A DNA stretch of 64,000 nucleotides from Desulfolutivibrio sulfodismutans DSM 3696 (GTDB lineage: Bacteria; Desulfobacterota; Desulfovibrionia; Desulfovibrionales; Desulfovibrionaceae): the NCBI RefSeq assembly GCF_013376455.1, contig NZ_CP045504.1:2191001-2255000 (forward strand), given 5' to 3'. The notes beneath the pieces are model-generated. The model saw only the letters and a program-made list of their open reading frames with translations, had not been told where the DNA came from and did not search any database. A program made the translations under genes and the position numbers. Each line of letters begins with the position of its first letter. Positions within the stretch are counted from its first letter, which is position 1. Of the stretch, positions 14,626 to 61,590 are shown piece by piece.

Positions 14626-14631
14626 GATTAC

Positions 14632-21585: not shown

Positions 21586-21840
21586 GCCGTCGCAATAGAG
21601 CATTCAAAAAATAACAAATAAATACTGAATTATGATCCCTGCAAGCACATTAACTGCTCGAAAATACGTTAACATCTTCTTACATACATGCCTGGGAGGG
21701 AAGGCTAAGCCTCGGCGGAGTAGATTTCTACCAAGACCGACAAAAGGACGTGCCGCCTCTCTCAAGCCTCTGGGTCAATTGGATGATCCAGCCGCGGCAA
21801 TTGGATGCCGCAAAAATCAACGGGGCAGGGGATTCAACGA

Positions 21841-21875
21841 AGAAAGGCCTAGGGCGTTTGCCTCAGGCCTTTCTC
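21841..21875. terminator. Hairpin between convergent genes
   Basis: GAAAGGCCT (21842-21850) and AGGCCTTTC (21865-21873) form a 9-bp stem between DUF6573 and the convergent parB gene. T-rich sequence follows weakly on both strands. The rest of 21586-21953 holds no supported gene. Confidence 0.6.
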
Positions 21876-21953
21876 TGCTTTGGCGTTGATCAGCACCAGC
21901 GGATTTGGTTCTAAAATCGAAAGCTTGAATGCCCCACTGCTACCCTACTGCTT

Positions 21954-22733: not shown

Positions 22734-23106
22734 CATGTCCTCCTTAAAGCGATTTTAGTAGAAACAGTCATGCAAATTCATTTTGAATTTCAAAATATGG
22801 GTAGTTTTTGGAATGCAAGCGGAACACATCTTCCAAAACTATCACAACTTAAGCACATCTAACAATACTCTCAAATCTTTGCAATACAAATTTATATAGG
22901 GGGATTACTACTTTGAGTAATCCCCATAAAAATATATATAAGGATTTTGCAATTGCAAATGTAATTATTTTAACCGGTTACCGTTTGCAAAATATTTTGC
23001 ATTGGAATTGGAAATGGAATGTAAATATATAAAATTTAACAGTAAAATTTTGCAAATGAAATTGGAATTGCTTGGAATTGGAATTGGTTGAAAATAGCAA
23101 GGGTTC
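22734..23106. other. AT-rich repeat region, candidate origin or partition site
   Basis: 373 bp without genes between rep and parB. It contains four TTGGAATTG motifs (23002, 23062, 23072 and overlapping 23078), five TTTGCAA-type sites in either direction (22878, 22946, 22953, 22984, 23048), and a perfect 10-bp inverted repeat GGGGATTACT/AGTAATCCCC (22900-22925). Iteron-like repeats in AT-rich DNA beside a replication gene suggest oriV; the inverted repeat could be the ParB site. Both roles are inference. Confidence 0.55.
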
Positions 23107-25023: not shown

Positions 25024-25198
25024 GATGACACCTGGACAAACAACTCCACGCCAATGGAGTTGGCTTAGATTTGTTTCGCAATGTCGGCGCGCCGACATCA
25101 GGCCAATTACGTACGTGATGACAGAGGGTTGCTGGCTATTTTCCTGAAGGCGGTGATGCGCAGGATCGTAGGAATGGACGGCGAAGACGCGAGCAATA

Positions 25199-25236
25199 AG
25201 AAAAGGGGGAAGGCTTTTTCAACCATTCCCCCTTCA
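25199..25236 (-). terminator. Rho-independent terminator
   Basis: AAGGGGGAA (25203-25211) and TTCCCCCTT (25226-25234) form a 9-bp stem, and the minus strand continues with TTTTCTTATT. It follows the small zinc-ribbon-like gene. Confidence 0.8.
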
Positions 25237-25256
25237 CGGTGGGATATGCTTCTAGT

Positions 25257-25535
25257 TTAGCATTTCACTTCGACCCAATCGAAGTAATAGCCATCATTTT
25301 CATATTCTTCAGCTTGCTTATCTGAGAGCGCGAGTTGTTTCTTGCGATATTCCTCATACAGGGCATCAAGATTGTTTTTTATCTCTTCATATGAGTGCGT
25401 TTTTGAAAGCGGTACATAGTACTTCTTGTAACAATCAGGGCATAAGAATTTCCACGTTTCATCAGGATTGGCGAAGAACCCGTGACCACCCCTTTGACAT
25501 TTCATTTTGATTTTTCCTTTGTTTCCTTTTGACAT
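25257..25535 (-). CDS. Small zinc-ribbon-like protein of recombinase module A
   Basis: 92 residues starting at 25535 with ACGAGG upstream. KCQRGGHGFF and LCPDCYKKYY supply at least three cysteines plus a His that could bind zinc. The rest is a charged helix. It directly follows the large integrase gene, just as the Cys-containing gene at 54010 follows the second integrase, so it is probably part of a conserved module, though the two small proteins are only loosely alike. Role unknown. Confidence 0.65.
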   Translation of the reverse strand: MSKGNKGKIKMKCQRGGHGFFANPDETWKFLCPDCYKKYYVPLSKTHSYEEIKNNLDALYEEYRKKQLALSDKQAEEYENDGYYFDWVEVKC

Positions 25536-25591
25536 GGCAGACCTCGTAACGCCCGGTTTTGGGGGCCTTCTCGGCCCCCGTTATGATGTCG

Positions 25592-26707
25592 TTATGACAA
25601 AGATGGCATCAAACTCACGGCGCGTTCCTTCTCGCCCTGCAGGTAGTGATAATACGTGTCCGCAGTCATCTTGACGGTGGAGTGACCCATCATCTTTGAT
25701 ACTGCGGCGAGGTCAGCACCTTTGCTCAAAAGCGTAGTGGCAAAGAGGTGGCGCAAATCGTACATTCTGGCTGAATATTTTATTTCGGCTCGTTCGCAGG
25801 CATTATTGAATGCCTTTCTCATTGTCGTGAGCCGTTTCCCGCGATACTCGACGACATATTCCGAGGTCGCAGCTTGCTTCATCTCCTTCAGCCGGGGGAT
25901 GAAGTTCGGATTGATGGGCACCGTTCTGAACTGCTTGTTTTTTGTCGCATAGATTTGGGCGGTGCCTTTCTCCAAATCCAGATTGGCCCATTTCAGGGAA
26001 AGCAATTCTGACGGCCCCGGCCGTGTTCCCAGGTTGAAGCAGACCTCCATGGCCCATCGAAGGTGAGGTTCCGCCTCCTTCATGATCTTCTTCACGTCCT
26101 CGAGGGTGAGTTGCACATCCCGAGGCGTTTCTTTCGACTTCTTCCTGCCCTTGAGAGGGTTGACCTTGGTCAGGCCCATTTCCAGGCCAAAGTTGAAGAT
26201 CGCGTCCACGTAATCGCAGTACCGATTGACGGTGTGCTGGGACCTCGGCTTTCCAGTGACAGAGCTTTCCGCTTGAAACTGCCGGATGAAAGGGAGCATG
26301 TCGCCGTGATAGGTCATCTGGTCCACGACCTTTTCCCCGAGCACGGGCAAGAACTGATTTTTCAAAAGCACTGAAACATTGTGGATATGCCGCTGCGTCC
26401 TTCCGGATGCCGCCAGATGTTCCAGGTGTTTTTTTGCCAAGTCCTTGAACCTCACGGCTGACTCTTCAGGGTTGTTGAGAGTGCGCTGAAAAGTCAGAAA
26501 CGGGTGATCTTGTAATCTCGTCTGTGACGTGAAGGAAACAGCATCAGGAAGTTCAGTTCCTGACGTTTTGGCCGACTTCACAGCGGTGTTGAAAGCTTCT
26601 GCCAAGCCGAATGCCTCGGGGCCTCTGCCAAAGGATTTGTCTTTTCTTTTACCCGAGTCATCGTGATAAAAGACCATCCACCTACCGTCGCGCTGGTATA
26701 CTCCCAT
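25592..26707 (-). CDS. Tyrosine recombinase/integrase, large partner (module A)
   Basis: 371 residues; ATG 26707 (MGVYQRDGRWMV) has GGAG upstream and matches the start of the relative at 54321-55496. An N-terminal arm-binding strand region is followed by a SAM-like core-binding domain and the catalytic domain: Arg in LGTRPGPSEL, YDLRHLFAT (Tyr replaces the usual first His of box II), GHSTVKMTADTYYHY with His and the nucleophile Tyr. It probably integrates and excises the left island with the small recombinase upstream. Confidence 0.92.
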   Translation of the reverse strand: MGVYQRDGRWMVFYHDDSGKRKDKSFGRGPEAFGLAEAFNTAVKSAKTSGTELPDAVSFTSQTRLQDHPFLTFQRTLNNPEESAVRFKDLAKKHLEHLAASGRTQRHIHNVSVLLKNQFLPVLGEKVVDQMTYHGDMLPFIRQFQAESSVTGKPRSQHTVNRYCDYVDAIFNFGLEMGLTKVNPLKGRKKSKETPRDVQLTLEDVKKIMKEAEPHLRWAMEVCFNLGTRPGPSELLSLKWANLDLEKGTAQIYATKNKQFRTVPINPNFIPRLKEMKQAATSEYVVEYRGKRLTTMRKAFNNACERAEIKYSARMYDLRHLFATTLLSKGADLAAVSKMMGHSTVKMTADTYYHYLQGEKERAVSLMPSLS

Positions 26708-26737
26708 AACGGAACTCCATGGGGTTGAGGTTATCCA

Positions 26738-26770
26738 AATGAAAAGGGGCCGATGAGGCCCCCTTTTTTT
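26738..26770 (-). terminator. Hairpin between the two module A recombinases
   Basis: GGGGCC (26746-26751) and GGCCCC (26757-26762) with a 5-nt loop. T runs flank it on both strands, and it lies between the small and large recombinase genes, where it could attenuate readthrough. Confidence 0.7.
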
Positions 26771-26786
26771 AACGATTTTTAGACTA

Positions 26787-27344
26787 TTATATTTCATGCA
26801 TCAGAATTTCTTCGACCTCCTCTTCCTGGATTCCAAGATAGCGCCGTGTGATAGACGGATTCGAATGGTTCAACCGTTTTGACAGGACTTCCCAGGAGAC
26901 GCCGAATTTCTTGCGCTGCTGGTAGGTCCAGGTTTTCCGCAAGGTATGCGCGCCGTAGTTGCCTTTCAGGTTCACAGCCGCACACCATCGCTTCACCATC
27001 TTGGTGACGGCGAAAGTGGTCAGAGGATAGTTTCTGCCCTTCCTGCTTTTGAACAGGAAGTCAGCGTCCCCGAGCTGTGCGGCCGTCAGATGCTTGTCCA
27101 GCGCAGTCTTGATTTCCTTGTTGACGATGAACACGTTTTCCTTGTTGGTCTTTTTCTCCTTCAAGGTAATGCGGTCGCCAACCTTGCAGTCTCGCAGGGT
27201 CTGGACCCGAAGGTTCAGTAAATCCTGGACGCGTAGCCCAGAGTTCACCCCCATCACAAACAGCAGCAGGTCTCTCGGACTTTCTCGCAAAATCTTCTTT
27301 ATGTTTCGGATGTCGCTGGAGGCGGTGATCGGTTCCACTTTCAT
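26787..27344 (-). CDS. Small tyrosine recombinase, catalytic domain only (module A)
   Basis: 185 residues; ATG at 27344 has GGAGG upstream. It contains only the catalytic domain: Arg in GVNSGLRVQDLLNL, HTLRKTW (His and second Arg) and HSNPSITRRYLG (His and Tyr nucleophile). It lacks arm- and core-binding domains, so it is about half the length of a normal integrase. The frame is intact and is repeated at 55857-56414, arguing it is functional and not a fragment. It may act with the large partner. Confidence 0.9.
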   Translation of the reverse strand: MKVEPITASSDIRNIKKILRESPRDLLLFVMGVNSGLRVQDLLNLRVQTLRDCKVGDRITLKEKKTNKENVFIVNKEIKTALDKHLTAAQLGDADFLFKSRKGRNYPLTTFAVTKMVKRWCAAVNLKGNYGAHTLRKTWTYQQRKKFGVSWEVLSKRLNHSNPSITRRYLGIQEEEVEEILMHEI

Positions 27345-27569
27345 GCATTTTCCTCCAAATTCCAGTTTTGCCTCCCAGAGATGTGAAACCGGACATTCAA
27401 AAACCCGGCGGGCATCTCCCCTTGGGGAGGCTATTTAATAACTCGTTAAATTTCTTGGATTTTAACAACCAATCCCAGTCAATGTCCGTTTCTACATAGA
27501 AACGTACTTTCCCATTTTTATTATTTTTATATAACTTTTGACAAAGTTAAAGAATTTTTGGCGCAGAAA

Positions 27570-27604
27570 CGAAAGAAAATGCCACGCTTCGAAGCATGGC
27601 ATTC
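27570..27604 (-). terminator. Terminator after AbrB-like gene (module A)
   Basis: AATGCCA (27578-27584) and TGGCATT (27597-27603) with an inner GCTTCGAAGC stem, T-rich tail on the minus strand. The same hairpin follows the relative at 56771. Confidence 0.75.
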
Positions 27605-27610
27605 TCGCGC

Positions 27611-27967
27611 TTAAGCCTTGGTGAGGATGATGCGTTCATCCTCGACGGAGACTCTGAACTCATCCCCATACTCGATGTGCATGCCCTGCAAATCGACCTT
27701 TTCCAGGTAGATCTTCAGTTCGAGCTTCTTGTTGACTCGGTAGCAATTCGAGCCCTTGAGATAGAGCCCCTTGACTTCGTAAAGGTACTTGTCATCGTTC
27801 ATCAGCTTCAAAATATGCTGCTTGAACGTCTGGCGGTGCTTGATTTCAAGCTTTGCCATGATTTCATCCGCATGCATTCCTGCATTGATGCATTCGCGCA
27901 GCATTTTGGGGTTGTATCGAGACTCGAATTTCTTTTCCGTGGTTTCATGTTCAGTTTTCTTTGTCAT
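27611..27967 (-). CDS. AbrB-like putative transcriptional regulator (module A)
   Basis: 118 residues; AAAGGAG lies before the ATG at 27967. An N-terminal helical region (RYNPKMLRECINAGMHADEIMAK) could be a helix-turn-helix. The C terminus (YGDEFRVSVEDERIILTKA) closely resembles the end of SpoVT/AbrB DNA-binding domains. It is the first gene of a module with the two recombinases, and its relative at 56771 is in the same place in module B. It probably controls recombinase expression. Confidence 0.75.
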   Translation of the reverse strand: MTKKTEHETTEKKFESRYNPKMLRECINAGMHADEIMAKLEIKHRQTFKQHILKLMNDDKYLYEVKGLYLKGSNCYRVNKKLELKIYLEKVDLQGMHIEYGDEFRVSVEDERIILTKA

Positions 27968-28228
27968 GTTTTTCTCCTTTGAGTATTATATTTCTATATT
28001 TGACGGAAGATTATGCAAATAAATATGAATTTTGCGCGCAAAACCACCTAAAAAGGGAGCTTTTGCATCTCGTTTCATGGGGAACCCTGGATTTGACCCC
28101 AGAATGCCTTCAGGCGCGTTTTGGGTCACGGGCAAGGGAAAGCTCGGGAAAAGGGTCAAAAAGGCCGCAGAGGGGAGCTTTGCGAGGCATTGTTTTCAGG
28201 AGTCATTGCCGAGGCCCCGCACAGAGCT

Positions 28229-28270
28229 AAAAAAAGAAAGAGGAACCCCGGTTTGAGCCGAGATTCCTCA
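28229..28270 (-). terminator. Rho-independent terminator with overlapping second hairpin
   Basis: On the minus strand GAGGAA...TTCCTC encloses an inner CGGC/ACCG-type stem and is followed by TTTCTTTTTTT. The adjacent CCTCAT CTAA ATGAGG hairpin (28266-28281) shares CCTC, so the two folds exclude each other, as in an attenuator. Confidence 0.7.
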
Positions 28271-28313
28271 TCTAAATGAGGCATTCCAAACTCTCCCTGG
28301 CGAAGATGATACT

Positions 28314-28508
28314 TCACCAAGGAGAGTCGGTTTCAGGGTCGAGTGAAACGTCACCGTTCCAAGCGCCCTTCACTTCCGGACAGGCGGTTTTCCCGCATCC
28401 GGCGGTAGCGGAAGATAAATGGATATTATTTTTTGAGATGTGTATTCGTACAATTTCAAAGTCGCTTTGTTTTAAGCCACCATGAGTCCAACTTCCATCT
28501 TCATTCAA
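28314..28508 (-). CDS. Possible small protein
   Basis: 64 residues with a protein-like middle (FEIVRIHISKNNIHLSS, two Cys). No ribosome site precedes the ATG. The end overlaps a perfect-looking inverted repeat (28290-28327, CTCTCC...GGAGAG), and a terminator follows at 28229. A transcript certainly seems to end here; whether it encodes this protein or is an RNA is open. Confidence 0.35.
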   Translation of the reverse strand: MNEDGSWTHGGLKQSDFEIVRIHISKNNIHLSSATAGCGKTACPEVKGAWNGDVSLDPETDSPW

Positions 28509-28665
28509 ACCAATTTTTCAAAATTTCATGCGTTTCATCTTCCGCCGTGTCCTTACGACACGCAGCCACCCCCAAATAGCGGATTCCTCCACAAATCCCT
28601 GCCGAAGCAGCTTGTTCAGGGGCTTCCTATGGTCTCATATCCGTCCATAAAGGACCGTCCCGCAC

Positions 28666-28821
28666 CTAATCGCGTCCGCATGCCTCAGCTATGAACTTCA
28701 GTTTGCCGTGAACTTCGTCCGGCATACGAGCCACCGTGGTCTCTCTCGATTGCTCGAAATACGGGCCAGCCCAAAATCGCAGCCCCTCCCCAAGCCGGAT
28801 TGCTCCGTACCTGGTTGGCAT
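28666..28821 (-). CDS. Small ribbon-helix-helix (CopG/Arc-like) protein
   Basis: 51 residues, ATG 28819-28821, TAG 28666-28668, preceded by a close GAGGA. The C-terminal half (RETTVARMPDEVHGKLKFI) has the strand-helix-helix pattern of ribbon-helix-helix repressors, which often have only 45-60 residues. It lies between the satellite-like operon and the recombinase module and could be an element repressor. Short and without wider context, so moderate confidence. Confidence 0.45.
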   Translation of the reverse strand: MPTRYGAIRLGEGLRFWAGPYFEQSRETTVARMPDEVHGKLKFIAEACGRD

Positions 28822-29245
28822 TCCTCAGGCGGCGCACCTCGATGGAGTCGGATGCGAAGGGTATTCTGAGTGAACTATTTTTTGATTTCAGCTAGTGTGC
28901 GCAGGTATAATGCCTACGCCAAAACGCTGGACCGGTGATATGATGCATAGCGCCCACGGCATTTTACTGCCTCGTGCATGCAATTCTGTAAATTGATTTG
29001 AAGAGATTGGAATTGAACTATTTCGTGATCGCGTAAAGAAACGAGCTTCATTAAAATTGTTTGAAAATCTCATCAAAGTATATATTGTTAACCTAATTTC
29101 TATATGAAGATCGAGTATATTAAATAATTTTTGCCGCATAAAATAAAGCTGGGGACATCGATCCCGCTGCTGGGTTTCTCGAATTGCAGCGAAACCAATA
29201 TTCCCAAAGTCTTTCTATCGAAGTTTCTTATCCTCCAAGGGGGGG
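28822..29245. other. Gene-free region after DpdA-like gene
   Basis: About 420 bp, AT-rich on the right. No supported gene, repeat or RNA seen. Confidence 0.5.
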
Positions 29246-30553
29246 TTACTTCAAGTGGCAAGGAAATCCGATGTCCTTGATCGTCCGCACCATATACTCC
29301 TCAAGGGTCGCTTCGTCCCGCCGGTCGACGAACCATTTATGCCAGAACCAAGTCCGCTCCAGAGTTATGGTGATGGTCTTTTCCATGTGGGGTGAAAATG
29401 CCTTCGGGTACTTTTGAGCAATGTCCTTAAAAATCCTGGTCAAGCGCCCTTTCAAATTCGTCGGGCTCGTTGCCTTGCCGAGTTCCCCAATAAGGTCGTA
29501 CTGGTCGATGACCATCCCAAAGAACTCGTCCAACTGAAGATTGCTGAACACGTTCAAAGGGCTGAAGGCCGCCGCATTCTGAAGCCTTACGCCATTACGG
29601 CGGCGATCCATTTCCGAAAGCAGCACCTGATAATGGCTGTCGTCTGCGGCTATCCCGCGAAGGATATCCTGCGGGGCGTCCAGCAAGGATGGATATATCT
29701 GAAAATCCGCCCCTTGGGCTACGTACAGCGGCACATCAGCATTCATCCGAACGGTATGTATGGGGTTGATCGAATCATACGACGTCTGCACATCCGCTGC
29801 CCCACCGAAGTAGCCTCGAAACAGCTTTTCCAGGAAAACAATATGAAACCTATCTGAGGGGGCGTATACGCCAAGGTAATGGATCTTCAGGCCGTCTCCA
29901 GCGTGCGGCCCTTGCATATGCCGATAGAGGATGTAGTAGCTCATGCCGGTGAAGGGCGTGAACGAGATATTCGTGGCTTCCTTGAGCCCAACCATCCCAC
30001 CAATGGCGTGGTTTCGAACGAATTTCTCCATCCCCAGTTCGGCATAAAGATGCTTCCAGATGGCGAACTGCTCCTGCATCTTGAAGTGCCAAACAAAGAA
30101 AAATTTATTTTGAAGAGCCTCATGGCGCTCCAAGACAGACCGCGAGGCACATAACGAGTCGGTGTTCGCCTGTAATATCTTGGCGACCGTATTGAACGAC
30201 TCGTATTTCAGGCTGAAAGGGATGTCCAACGAGAATATTCGATCATATTCTTCGAGTTCGCTTTCGAGATAGACCGTGTAACAGTCGACCAGCATGAGGA
30301 TTTTTGAAGGCGGAATATCGCCCTTGATGAATGAATAGCCGCCAGAATCCGTGACGATTTTCCCCCCGACAGGCACGGTAAAAAGCCTGGCAAACTCGCG
30401 GATATCGCAAGCCACCTTCTCGAGGGTGTCTAGCCCGAAGTCTTGCTGCCTCAGGCCGCCAATCAGCGAATACAGGGCGAATTTCGTCTGACGTGTTATC
30501 GCTTGCTCCATGGCGACGTCCGTCCCGCCGCCTGCGACGTAGATGTAACCCAT
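29246..30553 (-). CDS. TGT-superfamily protein, DpdA-like
   Basis: 435 residues; GGAGG lies 7 nt before ATG 30553. The barrel-type motifs of tRNA-guanine transglycosylase/DpdA relatives are visible: VTDSGGYSF near residue 67 (TGT DSGGFQ), FSLDIPFS, AIGGMVGLK and IHYLGV, with SYDS around residue 255 as a candidate nucleophile Asp. DpdA proteins swap guanine for a 7-deazaguanine in DNA of phages and genomic islands. No preQ0 synthesis or Dpd partner genes are nearby, so the base would have to come from the host. Last gene of a minus-strand operon with a P4-type helicase. Confidence 0.6.
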   Translation of the reverse strand: MGYIYVAGGGTDVAMEQAITRQTKFALYSLIGGLRQQDFGLDTLEKVACDIREFARLFTVPVGGKIVTDSGGYSFIKGDIPPSKILMLVDCYTVYLESELEEYDRIFSLDIPFSLKYESFNTVAKILQANTDSLCASRSVLERHEALQNKFFFVWHFKMQEQFAIWKHLYAELGMEKFVRNHAIGGMVGLKEATNISFTPFTGMSYYILYRHMQGPHAGDGLKIHYLGVYAPSDRFHIVFLEKLFRGYFGGAADVQTSYDSINPIHTVRMNADVPLYVAQGADFQIYPSLLDAPQDILRGIAADDSHYQVLLSEMDRRRNGVRLQNAAAFSPLNVFSNLQLDEFFGMVIDQYDLIGELGKATSPTNLKGRLTRIFKDIAQKYPKAFSPHMEKTITITLERTWFWHKWFVDRRDEATLEEYMVRTIKDIGFPCHLK

Positions 30554-30604
30554 TTCAAATCCTCCATGGAGGGGGGAGGCTCTCCCTCCCCCCCCCTGTC
30601 TCCG

Positions 30605-31414
30605 TTAAACACGCCCTTCGTATAGAAGCTCGTAGGTCGTGAGGTTGTTGATCATGTTCGGCTTCGACGAGGTTCTCAGCCAGTATCCGTGGACGTTGCG
30701 GTAGACACCGAAGCTCAGCCCCAGCTTTCCCGCCAGGGCCAAGAAGTTGCTGCTCGTGAGCATCAGGTCCGGTGAGCGATCAGCCAACGACGTGAATGAG
30801 GGCTTGTGAAGATAGTAGGGATTCTTGCCCCGAATCTCGACCTGCTCGAACTGACGAGAGAAGCACATCAAAAAAACAAACCTGGTCTTGGCCACGTATC
30901 TCTTGATAGCGTCCAGGTCGTCGACCTCGACCTCTTCGCCAAGCTTGTCTTTCTCGCTCGGGAGCGTTACCGAGGCCGTCGGTTCCTGCGGCGTGGGCTT
31001 CGTGAGCTGGGCCTTGGTGTAGCCGTTCGTGAAGACAAGCTCAGTGCCGAGGTCGTGGATTTCAATTTCCGACTTCCCAGCCAAGCTCGCGAGGTTGTCG
31101 ATGTCCTTTGCGCTGGCCAGGAAGCCGAAACTGACCCCCGGGTCGCTTGTGCCGACAGGCTGAACTCCGACGGGTATCGACTTTTTAGCCGGCAGCAGGA
31201 TGTTGGCGAGGTCGATGTCCACCCAGAAGTGGGGCGTCCCTATTGCCTGCACTATCCTGGAATTGTCGGCGTAGATCGGACGCGGCCCATGAAGCTCGAC
31301 CAGCTGGCGCGTGAGCCCGACGAACGCCTTGTAGCGCGCAGGAGCTATGGTGCAAAGGGGTTGAAGTGGCGGCGAAAATGCCGGAGCCAGGTGCGTGGTG
31401 AAGGTGCTTTCCAT
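30605..31414 (-). CDS. Unknown protein, possibly sliding-clamp-like
   Basis: 269 residues; AAGGAGGAAATC precedes ATG 31414. Two halves each suggest an alternating strand/helix pattern: FGFLASAKDIDNLASLAG then IEIHDLGTELVFTNG, and LTSSNFLALAGKLG then LSFGVY. This resembles DNA sliding clamps of phages, which would fit between a helicase and a DNA-modifying enzyme, but no diagnostic motif exists. It is 51 bp downstream... of the DpdA-like start and 59 bp from the helicase stop, so co-transcription is likely. Function uncertain. Confidence 0.55.
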   Translation of the reverse strand: MESTFTTHLAPAFSPPLQPLCTIAPARYKAFVGLTRQLVELHGPRPIYADNSRIVQAIGTPHFWVDIDLANILLPAKKSIPVGVQPVGTSDPGVSFGFLASAKDIDNLASLAGKSEIEIHDLGTELVFTNGYTKAQLTKPTPQEPTASVTLPSEKDKLGEEVEVDDLDAIKRYVAKTRFVFLMCFSRQFEQVEIRGKNPYYLHKPSFTSLADRSPDLMLTSSNFLALAGKLGLSFGVYRNVHGYWLRTSSKPNMINNLTTYELLYEGRV

Positions 31415-31473
31415 GATTTCCTCCTTAGGTTGAATGAAAATGCGGAGGCCCCTTTGCGGAGCCTCCGCGACGC

Positions 31474-33060
31474 TCAGCCGATGCGCTTGATTGCGATGCC
31501 CTGCCAGAAACGGCTGGGGTTGCCGCCTTTCGCCTCAAAGTGCCGGGCTGTGAGCATCTTTCCGAACTGGATTTTCCCGAGAGCCTTCGAGCCACAGTCC
31601 CGAGTCCAAGCCAGGTAGTCAGAATAAAGGAGGCCTTGTTGGGTCCGGGCGTTGGGGTCGGAGATATCGGTGCGCTCCTCCAGGTACCGCGAAATGTGGT
31701 CGTTTTCCTGAAAATAGGCGGCCGTCGCATCGAGGACGACTTTGGGCGGGTTCAGCCCCTGCTTCCTCCACTCCAGGAAGCCGCGTACAGCCCAAGCGAA
31801 AATTCCGGACAGTTCGCGCTCGACCTTGCCTTCAAGCTCTTCCTTGTTGACGGTGTTGTCGAACTGGTGGCGGAAAGGTACGACCCGAATCCGGCGACGC
31901 ATCGCGTGATCCGTGCTCAAAAGTGCCGGAAGGTGGTTCACCCCCATGAATATTTTTATCCTAGGCCGGAATTGGACCGGATCCTTTGCAACCCCGCGCC
32001 CGGATAACTCATCTCCGCTCACCAGCGCCTTCATGACCCCTTCGCCTAACGTGCGGTCCTGATCAGTCTCGATTGCAAAGCCTGAGCGTTTCCCTTCGAC
32101 TTGCCGATAAAAATAGGACATGCCGTACATTGTCGATTTAAGGATCATCTCAGGATTGAGCGTCAGGCCGTACTCGCCCGAGCCCAGGATGCGGAGGTTG
32201 GTCCCGAGGAAGAGGCTTTTCCCGTTCGCTCCACAACCGTGCAGGATGGTCATGACCTCCTCATAGGTCGAGCCGGTCATGCTGTAGCCGAATTGCCGCC
32301 GTAGATAATCGGCCAAGTCCCTGTCGCCGCATGACATTTTCGTGATGCTGTCTTCCCAGAAAGGGCATTTGGCATCCGGCTCCCAGGTGACAGGTGCAAC
32401 TTTCGTCACCTGCTGCGATGGGTGGTGCGGAGCCAACTCCAGGGTTTCCAGGTCGAGCAGGCCGTTCTGCAGGTTGATTTTATAATGGTCGGCGTCGAAC
32501 TCGCGGGACGTCACCTGGATGCGCGGCGCGAGGCTGGCAAGGGCGAGGGCCTTGTTGATCATTCCCAGGGAACGAACTTTTCCCTGAAACTTCAGAAAGT
32601 CCTCCTTGTCGACCGGCTGCCCGTCCTCGGTCATATGGATGCGGCCCTCCTCGAACTCGCGGTGGACCTTGTCCAGGGCTTCCAGCGCCCAGCGCTTTGC
32701 CAGATGGCCATGGTCGCCATACTTCGTGCCGTCCCAGGCATAGAGGAGCTTTCGGTCGGTCAGGTACCGCAGGCTGTCCTGACAGGCGGCAAGAACACGC
32801 TGGCTCGCTCCGACCTCGTCAAAGTTGGACACTACCTTTACCGTGGGGGGCCGGACGACGCTCCCCCCCACCTCGGGATCGGCCGCCGGGGCCTCGGCTT
32901 CTTCAGGCGCTGGTTGTTCCCCTCCTTGCGGAACTGCGTGCTCTTCCTCGTTCGGCGGCGGGTAGCCGCCGGTTCCCTCGGCCTGATCACGGGCCGAAAG
33001 CGCGTCGTCCTTGTGCTCCTCGTCATGCGGGGTTGGTGCGGATTCTGGATTGTTGAGCAT
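31474..33060 (-). CDS. P4-family primase-helicase (SF3 helicase, D5-like)
   Basis: 528 residues; AGGAGGGTGT precedes ATG 33060. The first 90 residues are acidic and Pro/Glu-rich, probably disordered. A D5_N-like region (about 120-260) leads to the SF3 ATPase with Walker A GCGANGKSLF and IFMGVNHLP (sensor-type Asn), then RRRIRVVPF. Such proteins start replication of phage satellites and plasmids. No zinc-binding primase domain is seen, so it may be helicase only. First of three closely spaced genes. Confidence 0.9.
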   Translation of the reverse strand: MLNNPESAPTPHDEEHKDDALSARDQAEGTGGYPPPNEEEHAVPQGGEQPAPEEAEAPAADPEVGGSVVRPPTVKVVSNFDEVGASQRVLAACQDSLRYLTDRKLLYAWDGTKYGDHGHLAKRWALEALDKVHREFEEGRIHMTEDGQPVDKEDFLKFQGKVRSLGMINKALALASLAPRIQVTSREFDADHYKINLQNGLLDLETLELAPHHPSQQVTKVAPVTWEPDAKCPFWEDSITKMSCGDRDLADYLRRQFGYSMTGSTYEEVMTILHGCGANGKSLFLGTNLRILGSGEYGLTLNPEMILKSTMYGMSYFYRQVEGKRSGFAIETDQDRTLGEGVMKALVSGDELSGRGVAKDPVQFRPRIKIFMGVNHLPALLSTDHAMRRRIRVVPFRHQFDNTVNKEELEGKVERELSGIFAWAVRGFLEWRKQGLNPPKVVLDATAAYFQENDHISRYLEERTDISDPNARTQQGLLYSDYLAWTRDCGSKALGKIQFGKMLTARHFEAKGGNPSRFWQGIAIKRIG

Positions 33061-33327
33061 ACACCCTCCTTGTCGTCGGCCCGAGCGGGCCGTGATTGAG
33101 CCAGGATAGCCTAGGCCCAAAAAAAGGGTTTTTTCTGGCATGATGACCGGGGGGGTAGGCAAAGAAACCTGAAAAATGGGTCCAACTGGTCAAACGGGCG
33201 GCGGTGAATGTCGTGGGGGGCTCAGCGAGATGTCACAAATGTCACGGCATGAAAAAATCTTTTATATAAGATAGTTACGTCGAAATGCTCCGGCTTCCCC
33301 GTGACATTTCGCGACACCGTCAAGCAA

Positions 33328-34296
33328 CTACTTGGATTTCAGATGCTTTTTGGATACCGGGAGGTCAAGGCGTTTTCTCATTGGGATTTTTTGCAGAAGA
33401 GGACAGCCGTGCTCTTTGTTGCAGGGGCATGTATCAATAGTCTTTTTGCTGCCAGGGCCATATATCCGACTTGATGGAGCAACTTTTTTTAACTTGTTCT
33501 TCGCGCTAACCTCTTTAGAATGATCAATCACTCCCGTCAGGATAAAAAGATGAAGCAGTTGCGTATGCAAAAGCTCACATCCATATTCCCATGCTTCTGT
33601 CGCGATGGCTCCGATATCGCTATTTTTCTGCTCGTCTCTTTTCTTTTTATTCGCGCTTGCGCCTATTGAATGAAATTTTCCGAGAAATGTGTCCTCAGTA
33701 AATTCGGAAAATAATTCTATTTGGTGCAATCCGATGCCTAAGCTTATTGCGCTTTTCAGCACATCCGCCCGGCCATCCTGGTTGGCAAAATTGGCGTCCT
33801 TCATAGTCCGAAAAACATTTTTTATGTAAAACCTGAGAAGAGCTATTCGGACTATTGCCTGATTTTTCATGACCTCCTTGTTTTCCTGTGTTGCAATTTT
33901 CAGTATCTTATTAAAGTAATCTCGATCATATTTCTTCATCTCCCATATGTTTTCAACTCTTGGCGATGTACATCGAACAAATCGAAAAGTGTCGGATATT
34001 TCTTCGAATTTTTTGCTAATATGGCCGTATTTTGCCCTAAGGTCTGCTTCAACGTTTTCTTCAGCGAGGATATACCTGTTTAACTCGTCAATGATTTTTA
34101 TTGCATCAATTAAGCTTATGTACCCGTCTAGAAATTCATCTATCACCTCCTCAAGATCTTTTATGTCCGAACTATCTGTTTGAAAAAACATGTCGAGATA
34201 GTTTTTAGCTTCAACGATGTTATGTTCTTCTTTGGACAGAAGTTCACACATCATATTCCCGACGTCTTTAATGGGTATAAGATTTTTTAAACTCAT
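33328..34296 (-). CDS. Unknown protein with C-terminal Cys cluster
   Basis: 322 residues. I prefer the ATG at 34296 (MSLKNLIP), which has GGAG 6 nt upstream, over the ATG four codons earlier. Largely helical and charged. Near the C terminus CPCNKEHGCPLL places three cysteines with a His, a possible metal site. The frame is AT-rich relative to its neighbour helicase. It lies 268 bp upstream of the helicase, same strand. I do not recognise the family. Confidence 0.65.
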   Translation of the reverse strand: MSLKNLIPIKDVGNMMCELLSKEEHNIVEAKNYLDMFFQTDSSDIKDLEEVIDEFLDGYISLIDAIKIIDELNRYILAEENVEADLRAKYGHISKKFEEISDTFRFVRCTSPRVENIWEMKKYDRDYFNKILKIATQENKEVMKNQAIVRIALLRFYIKNVFRTMKDANFANQDGRADVLKSAISLGIGLHQIELFSEFTEDTFLGKFHSIGASANKKKRDEQKNSDIGAIATEAWEYGCELLHTQLLHLFILTGVIDHSKEVSAKNKLKKVAPSSRIYGPGSKKTIDTCPCNKEHGCPLLQKIPMRKRLDLPVSKKHLKSK

Positions 34297-34653
34297 TGTT
34301 TTCTCCATCTAATTGATCGTTTTCGGCATTCTCGCATCAACATGCGTTTAACACACGCATAAATGCTGGGAAATGGCGTTTATTCGTGCCACAGGGGCGG
34401 CGGATTGGGCCGATACCGCGATTCTGTAGGAACGGCCGAAAGGAATGTCACAAATGTCACCATGCTATTTGATGAATTATTTTGGATAGTTATTGTCATC
34501 CTGGTACTGGCGGATGTGACATTTCATTCTCAACCGAGGTGCCGATCCAGGGGAAGAGAACCCCAAAAAACAGGCTTTGGGATCCTCCTGCGATTTCCTG
34601 GATTCTAGCGGGCCGGCCAGGCCCTAGTCCAGAAAATTTCCAAACGGGCAGGA

Positions 34654-34762
34654 GGGGGGCGCTTTGGGGGTCAAAAACTCCCAGGGGGCAGGGGCAGGGG
34701 CAGGGGCAGGGGCAGGGGCGGGCCAGTGGGCCAAGTTTTCTGTTGGGTCAAGCCAACTTTGG
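34654..34762. repeat. GC-rich dispersed repeat, composite copy
   Basis: Block A (34654-34688, GCGCTTTGGGGG...ACTCCCAGGGGG) recurs at 36475-36510. Block B (34715-34762, ending in a GTTGG...CCAAC hairpin) recurs at 36991-37029. Here A and B are joined through the GGGGCA tract; elsewhere they are separated by the 36541 gene. Confidence 0.75.
34685..34720 (+). repeat. GGGGCA tandem repeat, G-quadruplex candidate
   Basis: Five perfect GGGGCA units (34685-34714) followed by GGGGCG. Six runs of four G separated by two bases meet the sequence rule for a G-quadruplex on the plus strand. Confidence 0.85.
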
Positions 34763-34765
34763 GAA

Positions 34766-35006
34766 AAAGAAAGGCCCCATCCATGATGGACGGGGCCAGT
34801 AGGTGGTAATCGCTATATGATGTTGTTGTTCTCTGGCAGTTGTTTTAGCCAATTCTGTTGAGCTGGTGGTTACTCCACCTGAAGTTTGCCAGTATGTTCG
34901 ATTTCACTGGCCTGTTTTGCTCTACGTCAGAAGGCCTTTGCCGAATCGGTATTGTCCAATGGTCTCGCCTCCGTTGAGGTTGCAACCTGAAAACAACCTG
35001 GGACAC
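34766..35006 (-). ncRNA. Putative intergenic RNA, copy B of a two-copy family
   Basis: Same layout as the segment at 14386-14625: inferred start G at 35006, the identical 32-nt block at 34956-34987, the identical 21-nt hairpin block at 34860-34880, and the same terminator stem (34773-34797) with T-rich tail to about 34766. The two copies differ most just before the terminator and in the region around 34930-34955. No ORF is conserved between them. The RNA lies downstream of the DUF4405 gene on the same strand, with its own promoter. Confidence 0.75.
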
Positions 35007-35012
35007 GATTAC

Positions 35013-35041
35013 CATATAGGCCTGCGCTGAATGATTGTCCA
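35013..35041 (-). promoter_or_regulatory. Sigma70-type promoter of RNA copy B
   Basis: TGGACA (35036-35041), 17-nt spacer, TATATG (35013-35018) on the minus strand, matching copy A in hexamers and spacing. Confidence 0.72.
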
Positions 35042-35137
35042 GAGATTTCCCAAAAATACTTTTCCTGGTGGCGAATCAAGAGCAACCACGGGGGGGAAGA
35101 ATTTCAGTCATGCAACTGTACCCGAGCAGCCGGATTC

Positions 35138-35968
35138 CTAGCTGGAACTGGGTTTCCTGGACAAAGACCACGCTCGCAGGGCCTGATAAACCTCGGTCGG
35201 CGACAGGTTGTTCGCCGAAGCGATCTCCTTCATGGTCTGGTCCGCCGACGCCTTAATATTTGTCGCGGCCAAGCCTTTGACCGCCGCTTGGGCGTCCAAG
35301 CCGAACTGCTTGCAAAGATCGCCAAGACGCAGCTTGCCCGTACCCTCGGGGGCGATATCGGGTAGCTCCGGCGTAGTCGCGTCGCTCATGGCTTCGTACA
35401 GGGCCTTGGGAGTGACGCCGTTGGCGTCGGCCATGTCGCGGAGAGTCATTTTTGATGACTCAGCCTTGAAGCCTTTTTCCCGAAGCGCCATGAGCGCCTT
35501 TTCCGGGTCCATCTTCATGAAGGCGGCGAAGCGTTCCAAGGTGGAAAGCTCGGCGTGGCCGTAAGGAGGATTGCCGTAAGTCTCCACATGGGAGTCCTTG
35601 ATGGCGGAGCCGAGTTCTAAAACCTGTTGCATGGGCGGCAGGGCGAAAAGCGTACCGATGACCACGTACAGGGTGACGGCCAAGGCGGTCAGGTTTGCCG
35701 CGTTGATCCCGGTCAGTTCACGGGCCTTGTTTTTCATGTAGGACAGAATCGGCTTCCAGTTGAGCCAGACATGCAGCATCAGGGCGACGAGAAACAAAAA
35801 GCCCGTCGTCACATGGAGATCGCCCCACTGGGGCTTGTCAAGCCCGAGCAGTTTCCAGTCGGCCCAATAAGCAACCCGGCCCTCGGGTTCGATGTAAAGC
35901 ACTACGCTCGTCAAAAGGACGAAGACGCCGGAGAAGGTCAAAAGCAGGGATACGGTTTTTCGAAGCAT
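35138..35968 (-). CDS. DUF4405 membrane protein
   Basis: 276 residues; AAAGGAAC lies upstream of ATG 35968. Three hydrophobic segments (about 5-28, 50-72, 92-112) include GDLHVTTGFLFLVALMLHVWLNW, whose histidines resemble the cytochrome-b-like DUF4405 family. The C-terminal half is soluble, with repeated small helical units (MTLRDMADANGVTPKALYEAM and MKEIASANNLSPTEVYQAL), a duplicated helix-turn motif. GC content matches the chromosome. Possibly a haem-binding membrane sensor or electron carrier. Confidence 0.75.
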   Translation of the reverse strand: MLRKTVSLLLTFSGVFVLLTSVVLYIEPEGRVAYWADWKLLGLDKPQWGDLHVTTGFLFLVALMLHVWLNWKPILSYMKNKARELTGINAANLTALAVTLYVVIGTLFALPPMQQVLELGSAIKDSHVETYGNPPYGHAELSTLERFAAFMKMDPEKALMALREKGFKAESSKMTLRDMADANGVTPKALYEAMSDATTPELPDIAPEGTGKLRLGDLCKQFGLDAQAAVKGLAATNIKASADQTMKEIASANNLSPTEVYQALRAWSLSRKPSSS

Positions 35969-36540
35969 GCGTCGTGTTCCTTTGTCGGCGGTGGTTGGCG
36001 ATACTTATGGGAAATAAGCAAATTTTGGCAAGGATGTCCATGCCACAGCCGACTGTCTGACCTGCATTGCTGGGGCGGGAAGATCACCATAGCCCTGCGA
36101 CTTGCTCCGGCTGGAAATGCGCCTACCCCAGTGTCAATGCTCGGTCTGGAAGAAAATGCTGCACTCGGCTGGGCCATTTAGAAGGCGATTGATGCCTTCC
36201 CCGATTCCTCGACGGATGTTCGCATGAACCGATTGCGAAGTTGTCACAATTGTCACTGCGCAATTAATTCAATAAACACAGATTTTTGAGCCAGACAACC
36301 TTGCGCACCTGGTGACATTTCGCCGCCGACTGAAGGGGCTGATCATCAAGAAAAAACGTGCATTCCCCCATAGCTGCCCCCTCCTGGGCGAGGGGCTGTC
36401 CCGGGAGTCCAATCCCCCAACCCCAGGTAAAAGCCCAGGGAGGGGCCTGCCCACGCGAATCCAGGCTTCCCCCTGGGGGGGCGCTTTGGGGGCCAAAAAC
36501 TCCCAGGGGGGAAGGGGGCGGGGGCGGGGCAGGAGGTAAA
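35969..36540. other. Intergenic region, no gene supported
   Basis: 572 bp. Frames across the GC-rich right half are composition artefacts; the second copy of repeat block A is at 36475-36510. Otherwise nothing recognised. Confidence 0.5.
36475..36510. repeat. Second copy of GC-rich repeat block A
   Basis: Near-identical to 34654-34688, including GCGCTTTGGGGG and AACTCCCAGGGGG. Confidence 0.75.
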
Positions 36541-36948
36541 TTAATAAAGTGGCGTATGTATATATTTCTGCTTTTCACATGAACGACTGATCCAATCTTT
36601 AGCATGTTCCACTGATGGAAATATCTCGACTTTCCAAGTGGTTTCACTCATGGCGGACTTGTATAGTTCTGCAAAAGTCAATGCTTCTTCCTCATCGGTT
36701 ACGATGGCAAGAACGAGGCGTGGGTTGATGAGGGTAGCTGCTTCGTCCAAGGCGGCTGCGATTTCCACTTCTTCGGCAGACAGGTTGAACTTTTTAGCCC
36801 TTGATAAGTCGATAATCCCGTACTGCAGACCATCAAATCGTGGATCACCATAGATAGCTTGGGTTGCGCTGATGCCGTCTTGACCTGTAATCGTCCCATG
36901 GAATGCCCAAATCACTCCTCTGGTCTTCCAGGAAATTTTGTAGGGCAT
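36541..36948 (-). CDS. SpoIIAA-like (STAS-fold) protein
   Basis: 135 residues; AAGGAACC precedes ATG 36948. The pattern MPYKISWKTRGVIWAFHGTITG, GIIDLSRAKKFNLS, and IFPSVEHAKDWI is like small SpoIIAA-like STAS proteins, with a beta-alpha core and C-terminal helix. Such proteins may take part in regulation or lipid binding. It lies on the chromosomal side of the tRNA-Ala fragment and stands alone. Confidence 0.7.
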   Translation of the reverse strand: MPYKISWKTRGVIWAFHGTITGQDGISATQAIYGDPRFDGLQYGIIDLSRAKKFNLSAEEVEIAAALDEAATLINPRLVLAIVTDEEEALTFAELYKSAMSETTWKVEIFPSVEHAKDWISRSCEKQKYIHTPLY

Positions 36949-36990
36949 TTTTCCGGTTCCTTACGATCTGGAATCAAGGGGCAGGGGCGG

Positions 36991-37029
36991 GGGCGGGCCA
37001 AGTTTTCTGTTGGCATCAAGCCAACTTTT
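36991..37029. repeat. Second copy of repeat block B
   Basis: Shares GGGCGGGCCAAGTTTTCTG and the GTTGGC/GCCAAC hairpin with 34715-34762. Confidence 0.7.
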
Positions 37030-37044
37030 GAGGCCCCTTGGGCA

Positions 37045-37081
37045 AGAAAAAAGGGGCCAGGAACTTGGTTCCTAACCCCTT
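37045..37081 (-). terminator. tRNA-Ala terminator
   Basis: AAGGGG..AGGAAC..GTTCCT..CCCCTT (37051-37081) forms a two-part stem; on the minus strand it ends in TTTTTTCTT. It lies 9 bp past the CCA of the tRNA half, so it is likely the native terminator. Confidence 0.8.
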
Positions 37082-37089
37082 GAAATTCT

Positions 37090-37134
37090 TGGTGGAGCTG
37101 GAGGGAATCGAACCCACGACCTCTTGAATGCCAT
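37090..37134 (-). tRNA. 3' half of tRNA-Ala(GGC), element attachment site
   Basis: Read on the minus strand: anticodon loop ATGGCAT (T33, anticodon GGC), TCAAG, variable AGGTC, T arm GTGGG-TTCGATT-CCCTC, CAGCTCC, A, CCA. The U of CAGCTCC corresponds to U70 of the G3-U70 alanine identity pair. The bases before the loop (CTGGC) cannot pair with TCAAG, and no D arm or 5' acceptor strand follows, so only the half from the anticodon loop onward is present. This is what tRNA-targeted integration leaves at the distal junction. Confidence 0.8.
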
Positions 37135-37370
37135 GCCAGCAGCATGCTGAAATCATTAGACTTTGACTAGCCAGCCACCTGTTGCCAACGTAACATTTTG
37201 GCTCCTGCCAACAATTTTGTGGCTTTCAGTGGCGCTCCTGCCAACGTGTAGCCAACAGTTATTTGGTGGCAGTGGTTGCGTAGTTGGTGAGTCAGTGGTT
37301 AGACAGCCACAGGGCAGCCAATGAAGCAGTGGCTGGTCCAGATTCACAGGAGCCTGTGAATTTTGCAACC
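37121..37370. repeat. Attachment-type direct repeat, copy 1
   Basis: About 250 bp shared with 40906-41154, starting at the tRNA anticodon-loop core. It holds GCCAAC motifs at 37194, 37207, 37240 and 37251, spaced like recombinase arm sites, and a perfect ATTCACAGG/CCTGTGAAT inverted repeat at 37342-37361. Confidence 0.8.
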
Positions 37371-37409
37371 CCGGCAACCTACCCCCCCAAGAATAATGAC
37401 ACTCTCATG

Positions 37410-40316
37410 TCAGGCCTCCACTCTGGTTTTGCCCATCACCCTAGCGATGACAGCTTTCAGAGCTTCAATATCCACTGGCTTGGAGATGTAGTCGTTCATC
37501 CCAGCGGTCATGAACTTCTCCTTGTCCCCGGTCATGGCATAAGCGGTCATGGCGATGATCGGGATGTCGGCAAAAGGTTTGCCTGAAGTGCGGATTGATC
37601 TTGTCGCCTCCATGCCATTCATGACTGGCATTTGAATATCCATCAGGATTAAGTCGAAGGCTTCGGCATCCAACAGGGCAATCGCCATCATGCCGTCCGT
37701 CGCTGTCTGCACTTGGTGGCCTTGTATCTCCAGCGTTTTCTTCACGAAACTCAAGCTCAATTCATCGTCATCCGCTGCCAAGATATGAAAATGCAGGCCT
37801 GTATTGCGCTTGGGTGCCGTGGTCGGGGCTGGTTCGCTTCGGGTTGCTTCGATAAGTCCAACCTTGAAGGTAACATAGATCGTCGAACCCTTGCCTTCAT
37901 TCGAATCAACGCAGATCGTGCCGCCTATAAGCGCCACCAACCGCCTGACAATAGCCAGGCCAAGCCCTGCGCCCTGATACTTGCGAGTAAATGACGTGTC
38001 GGCCTGGGCGAAGGGGTGGAACAAGCTCGAAAGTCTGTCGTCGGGTATGCCGGGTCCAGTGTCCGAGACAATCAGCAGCAGCATGCCTTGGGTAGGATCG
38101 GCTTCGATCCTGGTGAAGGCGCTCGTCATCATCACCTCGCCCTGCTCGGTGAACTTGACGGCGTTGCCGACCAGATTGAAAAGCACCTGCAAAATCCTGG
38201 CTTGATCTCCAACCAAGGTTTCAGGGATAGTGCGCTCGTATTCGTAGCTCAACGACACCCCTTTGCTGTCGGCAGTGCGGGCGAACATCGCAATCGTTTC
38301 TTCCAGAAGATCTTTAGGGCTGAATTGCGCCGATATGATTTCCAACTTATCGGCGTCGATGCGGCTTATGTCTAAAATGTCGTTGAGCAAGCGTAAAAGC
38401 CTCTGGGACGACTCCTTGGCCATTGTCACGCACTGTAACTGATCGTCAGTGAGTGGCTCCATGCCCAACAGTTGGAGCATGCCAAACACTCCGTTAAGTG
38501 GAGTGCGGATTTCATGGCTCATGTTGGCCAGGAAGGCGGATTTGGCTTTGTTGGCGGCTTCGGCTGCACCCTTGGCCACCTGTAACTGCCTGGTGCGACT
38601 CGCCACCTCCTCTTCCAGCGAATCATTGACCTGTTTGATAGCCTTGAACTGCATAGACAAGGCGTCAGACATCATACGGAAGTTGGCTGTCAGGTAGTCA
38701 ATTTCCAACACCCGGCTTTGCAACAGGGAATGCTTCGTGACGCCTTGCGCCAGGTTAAGTGGCAGATTGGCAGTCGCTCCGGCCAGACTCTCCAGTCCCC
38801 GCATGATCCGGCGACTGAGCAGCCAAGCCAGTAGCAGCGCTACGAACAGGATCAGCAAGGCCAGGAACAAAGCCTTGGAGTATCGGTCGTAGAGATATCT
38901 CTGGAAAGGGGCTGTGGGCTGTTCCAGGATCAACTTCCATTCACCCATACCGCCGATGGAGCTTTCAATGATATAGCGCGCTTGTCGCCATCGCTCCATG
39001 ATGCTCGTGTTTGGCGGCACCTCGGGCACCCATTGCGAGATGCCTCCGTCCTGGTGTGCCCAATTCCCCTTGTTACGTACAAAGGGCTGCATAACCTCTA
39101 GTCCGACGACATTGGACATGATGACTTTGTCGTTCTTGTCCAGCAAAATATAACGCATGCCCTCGAGATCCATGTTCAGGTCAAGGAAATCCTTGATCTG
39201 GGACAGTCGTGGAACTGTGACGACGTAGCCCTCGAATCGGCCTCCGACAACAACCGGGGCAAGCATCAAGACGATCGGCACCGGACCACCAGTCCTGCCG
39301 ATCATGACTTCCGTAAGCATCGGCTTAAGCCTGCTCTTTAGCTCGGGCAGATAAGGGCGGTCTGCGGCACTCTTGCCGATGTTGGGCATCCCCATTTCGT
39401 CGAGCAGCGGGTAGTAGGCGGTAATTATGGCATCAGCGTTCAACAGGCCTGCCCGAACCAGGTTTGGATCGGATTTGGTCGCCTGCTCCAGGAAGGGCTG
39501 TACCCCTTCAGGCGGCAATGTGTGAGCGAGTTCTGCCAGAGTATTCAAGCTGGCCATCCGGTCCTCGATCCAGACCCCCATACGCCGTGAGATTTGCTCG
39601 CTCTTTGCAATTAACTGGGTGCGAATGCGTTGGTCGGTTTCGGTGAAGTCGCTTCTGCTGGCGATGAACAATATTACAAGCATAGGGAGCAGAACGAAGC
39701 TGGCCAGCAAAATATAGACGATCTCACGGTAGGAAAATCGCATGGATCGGGTCGCTAACCCATAACTGAAAATGATCACTCGCGCGATTAGGGCGTTGGT
39801 TATTCCGTTGATCGCTTGTTTAGCCATTACGATCTGGGTGCTGGACGATGAACTGTGCATGGCGAAATAATATAACAGGAAAACAAGCGGAATGCCGATA
39901 AAAATCCAATAGAGCGTGTCGGCTATCACGATGTTAAAGTTGCGGCGATATATCAGCCAACCGACAACGGCCGCTTCGGTGGTCATGATGATGATGGCGT
40001 AGGGGTGGAACCAGAGGATGAACGTGTAGCTGGCGATCAGTGCGGCGGCCGTAATTCCCCAGCCGAGACCAAGAAGTTGCAGTGCAATCATCGAGAAAAT
40101 GCTGCCAAAGAGAAAATCGATATTCAAAAAGATTGGAAACTTGAGGTAGTTTCCGGCCAAGCCGGCAAGAACAAGAAACATAAATACAACGAGCTTGAAC
40201 TTCACGGGGATTTCTAATCCGTTTTTCGTTGCGTTAGCCGTCGGATTGTTGGCCCCACGGAAAACCGGAGTGAGCGATTCACTGTCCTTAACCAACGGCC
40301 ATCCCTTTCTATCCAT
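37410..40316 (-). CDS. Membrane hybrid histidine kinase
   Basis: 968 residues; AAGGTAAC precedes ATG 40316. About six N-terminal hydrophobic segments (35-215), a Cache-like extracytoplasmic region (about 230-470), another membrane helix and a linker, then HisKA ([14 protein letters not shown]), HATPase ([18 protein letters not shown]) and a C-terminal receiver ([11 protein letters not shown]). A surface signal should drive phosphorelay. The gene is bounded on both sides by the 250-bp direct repeat, so it forms the cargo of a 3.8-kb segment between two attachment-like sites. Confidence 0.9.
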
Positions 40317-40905
40317 GTTATGTTACCTTGCCTAACCTAGCTTGAGCAATTTTCTCGCGCCTTCATACACCCGACAGCTGCTCATCCTCCAGAGACCATT
40401 TACAAATACATCCATCCGACACCAAGAACCTCGTCACCATTCGGGTGGAGGACTGGAAGAACCAACTGGAAGAACCAGTTTAGTAACTAAAACAAACTTC
40501 ATCGACGGTGTCCATCACAACAGACTGGCTGACCGGTCGCGCTTCTTTCCAAGAAAGGGGGGATCAGCAGTCCCAACCTCTTGAATTTTCATCAAGCGTC
40601 CTTCGCCTTCGCGACCATCTCGTCGCAGTCCTGCCCTCCATCACTTCCAAGAGAAACTTTCTCCGCCCCTTTAGGATAAGCACAAGCACTCCCAAGCAGC
40701 GATCGCTTGAAAAACCCACAAGGGGCACGACCTCTCAACGCTGCTTCCTCTGCGCCTGAACTCCAAAAGCTTCATTCGTGCGAATTGTGCTTTTTTGTGC
40801 TCATTTTCGTCACCCGATCGCTTGAATAGAAATTCAAGCGATCCCGAAATATAACTTTCAACTATCTGAAATAACTCACTTGCCCTCCACTTGTCCTTTT
40901 GAGCG
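40317..40905. other. Upstream region of hybrid kinase, gene remnants
   Basis: No intact gene. The part 40334-40460 is a diverged copy of 53612-53735. Confidence 0.45.
40334..40460. repeat. Diverged repeat, copy 1
   Basis: Shares CTTGAGC.ATTT.CTCGC, TTACAAATACA and CTCGTCACC...GGAGGACTGGA in the same order with 53612-53735. Both copies lie just upstream of minus-strand sensor genes. Confidence 0.5.
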
Positions 40906-41154
40906 CTCTTGAATGCCATGCCAGCAGCATTTTGAAATCATTAGACTTTGGCTAGCCAGCCAACGGTTGCCAACGTAACATTTTGGCGTCTGCCAACAGA
41001 TTTGTGGCTTTCAGTGGCGGTCCTGCCAACGTGCCGCCAACAGGGCTTTAGTAGAAGTGGTTGCGCAGTTGGTGAGACAGTGGTTAGACAGCCACAGAGA
41101 TGACAACGCGGCAGTGGCACGTCCAGATTCACAGACTCCTGTGACTTTTGCGAA
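40906..41154. repeat. Attachment-type direct repeat, copy 2
   Basis: Matches 37121-37370 from the CTCTTGAATGCCAT core onward, with five GCCAAC motifs (40959, 40969, 40992, 41025, 41036). The tRNA 3' sequence is not present on its left; it is replaced by other DNA after 14 shared bases. Confidence 0.8.
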
Positions 41155-41204
41155 CCAGTAACCGTCACCTGCACATGATGATGACGCTTTGTGAGAAGGC
41201 CTCG

Positions 41205-61531: not shown

Positions 61532-61590
61532 TTCGGATTTCCTTTGAAGAAGGGCCACCAAGTTTTCACTTGATGGCCCTCTTTTAACGC

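Follow-up and report, generated by a model that had tools for sequence, protein, structure and literature searches.

The half tRNA gene at 37.1 kb in the window, by which we denote the whole 64,000-nucleotide stretch of DNA analyzed here, very probably marks a seam within a tandem accretion array, in which related integrative elements occupy one tRNA-Ala(GGC) gene. The proposed members of the array are all on the minus strand: El.1 (40906–69111, 28.2 kb; in-window part 40906–64000), which ends in the core of an intact tRNA-Ala(GGC) gene beyond the window; El.2 (37121–40919, 3.8 kb), which is bounded by att cores and carries no integrase; and El.3 (18507–37134), whose tRNA-side end is at 37134 and whose distal end is missing, being truncated at an insertion sequence that probably sets its left limit.

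The half tRNA at 37090–37134 (minus strand) was confirmed. Read from 37134 to 37090, the minus strand is ATGGCATTCAAGAGGTCGTGGGTTCGATTCCCTCCAGCTCCACCA; its 45 nt comprise the anticodon loop from the first base, the 3' side of the anticodon stem, the variable loop, the T arm and the 3' acceptor strand (tRNA positions 32–76), with U70, A73 and CCA present in the 3' acceptor end. Two congeners (G001 and G002) have exactly the same 45 nt at the 3' end of their tRNA-Ala(GGC), and the host's own tRNA-Ala(GGC) gene (C1:2260067-2260142) matches as well, in agreement with the identity proposed in the earlier note. A strong intrinsic terminator follows at ~37044–37082 (minus strand; hairpin with a 14-bp stem and a U-run, −22.5 kcal/mol, z = −5.07). 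No complete tRNA was found in the 64-kb window by ARAGORN. The best Rfam match of the fragment was to tmRNA (RF00023), which would make it a displaced 3' end of ssrA. The match, at 24.4 bits against a cut-off of 47, is that of a look-alike, however: the real ssrA lies elsewhere, at C1:954812 and unlinked to the half tRNA, and core and half both match tRNA-Ala(GGC), a sequence match that already refutes the tmRNA reading and leaves it next to no probability.

An intact tRNA-Ala(GGC) gene, predicted in the earlier note to lie beyond position 64000, was found at 69067–69142 (window numbering), 5 kb past the window and on the same strand as the half. The two share a 14-bp anticodon-loop core, ATGGCATTCAAGAG, as expected of an integration junction with its crossover in the anticodon-loop/stem region. 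A whole-genome search revealed three copies of the core in 4.44 Mb, all on one strand, at 37121–37134, 40906–40919 and 69098–69111. Since the core occurs only three times, and no copy with one mismatch exists elsewhere in the genome, chance is excluded. The first copy lies at the internal seam between El.2 and El.3; the second is a further internal att core (minus strand, like the first), at which the P arm of El.1 is joined to the P' side of El.2, and it is the sole att site among those compared that lacks a tRNA 3' half. An intact tDNA and its cognate displaced 3' fragment, in the same orientation, thus bound the island, as the Islander definition has it.

The cores are accompanied by arm-type repeats. 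The P arm of El.2 (37121–37370, minus strand) contains GTTGGC/GCCAAC repeats at 37184, 37207, 37240 and 37251, and over 250 bp it is 86% identical to the P arm of El.1 (40906–41156, minus strand), which contains five. Each core has a cluster of these repeats beside it: one to either side of 37.1 kb, one to the right of 40.9 kb and one immediately left of the intact tRNA gene. The position and recurrence of the repeats suggest that they are integrase-binding arm sites. Because of the third core and the similar arms, two units and not one island lie between 37.1 kb and the tRNA gene. The DNA right of 37134 is therefore element DNA, as the earlier note had it, but in the form of two tandem units meeting at 40906–40919. 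In the P' arms, recurrent hairpins of the form CGCTTGA-N6-8-TCAAGNGGTCG adjoin the attachment core and mimic the tRNA anticodon arm (~68900–68930 and 40800–40860 in window numbering; also in G289, G011, G002 and G177). These hairpins may act as decoys or provide additional binding sites for a recombinase.

The extent of El.1 is apparent from a relative in another genus. Between its tRNA-Ala(GGC) gene and a displaced half, G177 (genus g10, Fundidesulfovibrio) carries the same element, 90–94% identical in DNA to El.1 in large blocks over most of the backbone, with the cargo between them swapped and reordered; the flanking chromosomes of the host and G177 are 76–80% identical. The P arm of El.1 aligns to the distal end of the G177 element (87%), and the alignment stops at the last core base, 40906, so the ends of El.1 are fixed independently of the junction described in the earlier note. 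El.1 encodes, on the minus strand, a long tyrosine recombinase (54321–55496, 391 aa) with the R, LRH, GH and Y boxes and with Y where the first His of box II is usual; a short tyrosine recombinase (55857–56555, a 232-aa ORF) that consists of the catalytic domain only, with R, HTLRK, NHS and Y boxes; and a DUF927/Cch-type primase-helicase (59657–61561). Other genes specify a sigma-54-type AAA protein (in PADLOC, RtcR-like AAA matches only), a TGT-like protein and a radical-SAM-like protein, and the cargo includes genes for a hybrid-cluster protein, an ABC exporter, TetR and GGDEF proteins and chemotaxis. The TGT-like gene (queuine tRNA-ribosyltransferase family; 64409–65341 in window numbering) has distant relatives in elements of G289, G297 and G011 (Fundidesulfovibrio agrisoli SG106, a congener of G177) and is possibly a backbone gene of these elements.

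The intact tRNA gene itself is chimeric. Among 119 sampled family genomes, surveyed with an exact pattern that permits either T-stem allele, C51-G63 was found in six of the six g10 genomes sampled and, outside g10, only in the intact gene of the host; all other matches, both congeners included, had G51-C63. G51-C63, the genus-native allele, is also that of the displaced half at 37.1 kb, which is identical to the native 3' half of the congeners. An intact gene with the g10 allele and a displaced half with the native one argue that El.1 replaced the tRNA 3' half. On the simplest reading of these alleles, El.1 would have come from a Fundidesulfovibrio-like donor, bringing a new 3' half and displacing the native one, so that the present gene would be a hybrid.

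Left of the half tRNA, a P' arm (36977–37028, minus strand), 89% identical to 34708–34760, has three TTGGC/GCCAA sites within ~45 bp. These sites lie ~97–135 bp beyond the 37.1-kb core, the same distance as in other elements; elsewhere in the region, a density of three TTGGC-type sites per 45 bp is reached at 0.14% of positions. The G+C fraction of 18.5–37.1 kb is 0.496, near that of El.1 (0.488) and below that of the chromosome to the left (0.677) and right (0.635). On the minus strand, this DNA encodes a ParB-like protein (21954–22736), a Prim-Pol/AAA_25 replication protein (23107–25098), long (25592–26797, 401 aa) and short (26787–27344, 185 aa) tyrosine recombinases that are ~55% and 68% identical to those of El.1, and a D5_N/DUF5906 primase-helicase (31474–33162), in a gene order resembling the one seen in a complete G289 element. 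With arm repeats, low G+C content, a recombinase pair and primases on its left, the 37.1-kb site is therefore an internal seam, with El.3 next to it, and element arms flank the internal hybrid att sites on both sides, as in tandem accretion. El.3, which has one mapped end, is accordingly assigned as a probable element from its arm repeats, composition and gene content. As in Islander islands, an integrase lies inside El.1 and inside El.3; El.2 alone has none.

These findings bear on the model of the earlier note, in which a single island extends from 37134 to the intact tRNA gene and native chromosome lies left of 37134. The native allele of the half, the same as in the congeners' tRNA, is what a chromosomal end would have and counts against the array. 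G002, which has a degenerate array of its own, likewise shows the same left neighbors, a SpoIIAA-like gene and a 300-bp repeat, beside its half tRNA. The third core at 40906, precisely where the arm homology between El.1 and G177 stops, and the element-like content of the left-hand DNA, which is not chromosome-like as had been thought, nevertheless make a single island very unlikely. The DNA to the right of the half in G002 is different, and the content right of the seam is therefore exchangeable, as accretion predicts. This congener approaches the case, raised in the earlier note against integration, of an unrelated strain with the same half tRNA and no right-hand island; integration itself is not refuted by it.

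Two features near the half tRNA deserve separate mention. The small gene directly behind it (36541–36948), which recurs at G002:C33 ~72557 with 77% identity, is SpoIIAA/STAS-like by sequence reading and had no Pfam match. The ~300-bp repeat at 34764–35061 and 14385–14680 (83%) was considered as a pair of att flanks and rejected, as more copies occur elsewhere in G001 and G002; it is more likely a repeated, structured intergenic segment. Its ends are promoter-like and terminator-like, and it resembles a conserved small RNA; a search of Rfam with this segment gave no convincing match.

At its far end, El.3 abuts an insertion sequence with an rve transposase (17416–18506, plus strand), an identical copy of which is at C1:2619499-2620589. 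No obvious target duplication was seen at the copy in the window, which truncates a CheB-fusion gene (18459–19142); none of the stretches examined contains the remainder of this gene. Neither an El.3 distal core with a chromosomal B' half anywhere in the genome nor, in 288 family genomes, a full-length relative that would locate the distal end by DNA similarity was found. It is plausible that a deletion linked to the insertion sequence removed this end. A boundary at 19219, common to G002 and G289, was rejected as the end of El.3 since it looks like an IS200/IS605-type repeat end with a CCAGCTTCAGCTGG hairpin. In G001, the counterpart of the chromosome at the left of the window maps ~1 Mb away from the tRNA locus, so rearrangement complicates the reconstruction; synteny of this chromosome with G001 and G002, interrupted by rearrangement or split between separate contigs, was uninformative. 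Inside this high-G+C chromosome, a low-G+C patch (~0.44) at 9502–11993 contains two GNAT-type (Acetyltransf_6) genes.

El.2 resembles a CIME: it has an att site at both ends and no integration or transfer genes. Its only large gene (37410–40316, minus strand) encodes a hybrid histidine kinase with dCache-like, HisKA, HATPase and receiver domains, and no PF00589 gene was found between its cores among the matches listed. El.2 may have been, or may still be, moved in trans. Within the array model, and not as an alternative to it, El.2 could be what remains of a larger element that lay between El.1 and El.3 and whose backbone was deleted after integration. The 40.9-kb seam lacks a tRNA 3' half, yet a stretch resembling the G011 P' arm (40722–40561) remains there, and a related kinase gene lies at the distal end of the full integrase-bearing element in G177. 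Against this, G289 and G297 repeatedly show att-bounded integrase-less units of several sizes (~1.6, 7.9, 14.4 and 23.9 kb), most of them with an arm at either side; a local deletion is therefore not required to account for such a unit. We consider the chances of the relic reading to be even.

Related arrays exist elsewhere in the family. G289 (Solidesulfovibrio group), possibly strain RS-1, has an intact tRNA-Ala(GGC) gene and, behind it, four displaced halves flanked left and right by arm repeats. A recombinase pair is present in two units of this array; in the two outer ones (14.4 and 23.9 kb), no PF00589 gene was found among the matches listed (to about 1e-11). In G297, the short units (~1.6 and 7.9 kb) are without the pair. 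P-arm sites of this type, with one mismatch allowed, are present in 13 of the 288 family genomes. Behind the orthologous tRNA gene, the content differs among G001, G002 and G177, as is typical of Islander islands, and no empty site was found in the three genomes of the genus, each of which has arm-like repeats beside the tRNA gene; the lack of an empty site weighs against the array model. Across G289:C2, more than 12 adjacent pairs of long and short tyrosine recombinases were counted genome-wide, several of them clustered, which suggests arrays at other targets too.

An incoming element of this kind would use the anticodon-loop/3'-stem core and the GTTGGC arm sites to recombine either with the tRNA gene or with a core that an earlier element had left; its own 3' half would restore the tRNA gene, and the previous 3' half would be shifted outward. 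Along the minus strand, the array would begin with a tRNA gene whose 5' half is native and whose 3' half came with El.1, continue with El.1, the 40.9-kb seam, El.2 and the 37.1-kb seam with the displaced native 3' half, and close with El.3, whose far end was probably lost at the insertion sequence at 17.4–18.5 kb. We infer the order in which the elements arrived, and likewise which recombinase performs the crossover. A more far-reaching and rather doubtful possibility is that the integrase-less core/arm units (1.6–24 kb, with one to many cargo genes) are cassettes moved in trans by the recombinase pairs of their neighbors, that the Desulfovibrionaceae tRNA-Ala(GGC) gene is a cassette-stacking site, and that incoming elements repeatedly rewrite the tRNA 3' half across genera.

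The analysis places an ambiguous half tRNA in an ordered array whose seams are mapped and provides a clean natural record of a foreign allele replacing a host tRNA 3' half, with the displaced native half persisting nearby. It also points to a tRNA-Ala(GGC) element family across several Desulfovibrionaceae genera, whose integrase-less units escape island finders that require one integrase per unit. As to the nature of these elements, no relaxase or conjugation genes were found when the main ORFs of El.1 and El.3 were scanned with Pfam. A PHROGs scan of ten proteins gave matches only to primase/helicase, AAA and TGT-like families and to unknown ones, and none to virion or packaging families; a P4-like D5 primase does not by itself justify assignment to a phage or phage satellite. 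In plasmid and phage collections, the integrases had only distant matches.

Displaced 3' tDNA fragments and an anticodon-centered crossover are standard for tRNA islands (PMC4383910), tandem accretion and CIMEs are established (PMC5704250), and there are other elements with paired tyrosine recombinases (PMC5704250; PMC3414803); the array is therefore of an already known type. Two of its details are instructive, namely the exchange of a tRNA half between genera and the recurring integrase-less units. The array shares with the tRNA/tmRNA islands of Islander (sub-site A) the regenerated target, the displaced 3' fragment at the ends and a tyrosine integrase; tandem arrays are recognized there too, and the 19 islands of Desulfovibrio magneticus RS-1 are the most of any genome (PMC4383910). 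Accretion of CIMEs, ICEs and IMEs, as in the ICESt1 family, likewise places decayed, integrase-less, att-bounded units beside intact elements and yields hybrid internal att sites (PMC5704250), but no relaxase or transfer genes were recognized in the present array. The 'Tyr duo' IMEs MTnPi1-3 also have adjacent genes for two tyrosine recombinases that are only distantly related to each other, but they are listed among IMEs of low site specificity (PMC5704250), whereas the elements described here are specific for the tRNA site and their second recombinase is a short catalytic domain (185–232 aa). The closest parallel is provided by the ssrA islands of Dehalococcoides, which are tandem, have displaced target repeats and lack conjugation genes, with 15 of them (about half) being without an integration module (PMC3146451); those islands use serine recombinases at ssrA, whereas the present array combines long and short tyrosine recombinases at tRNA-Ala(GGC).
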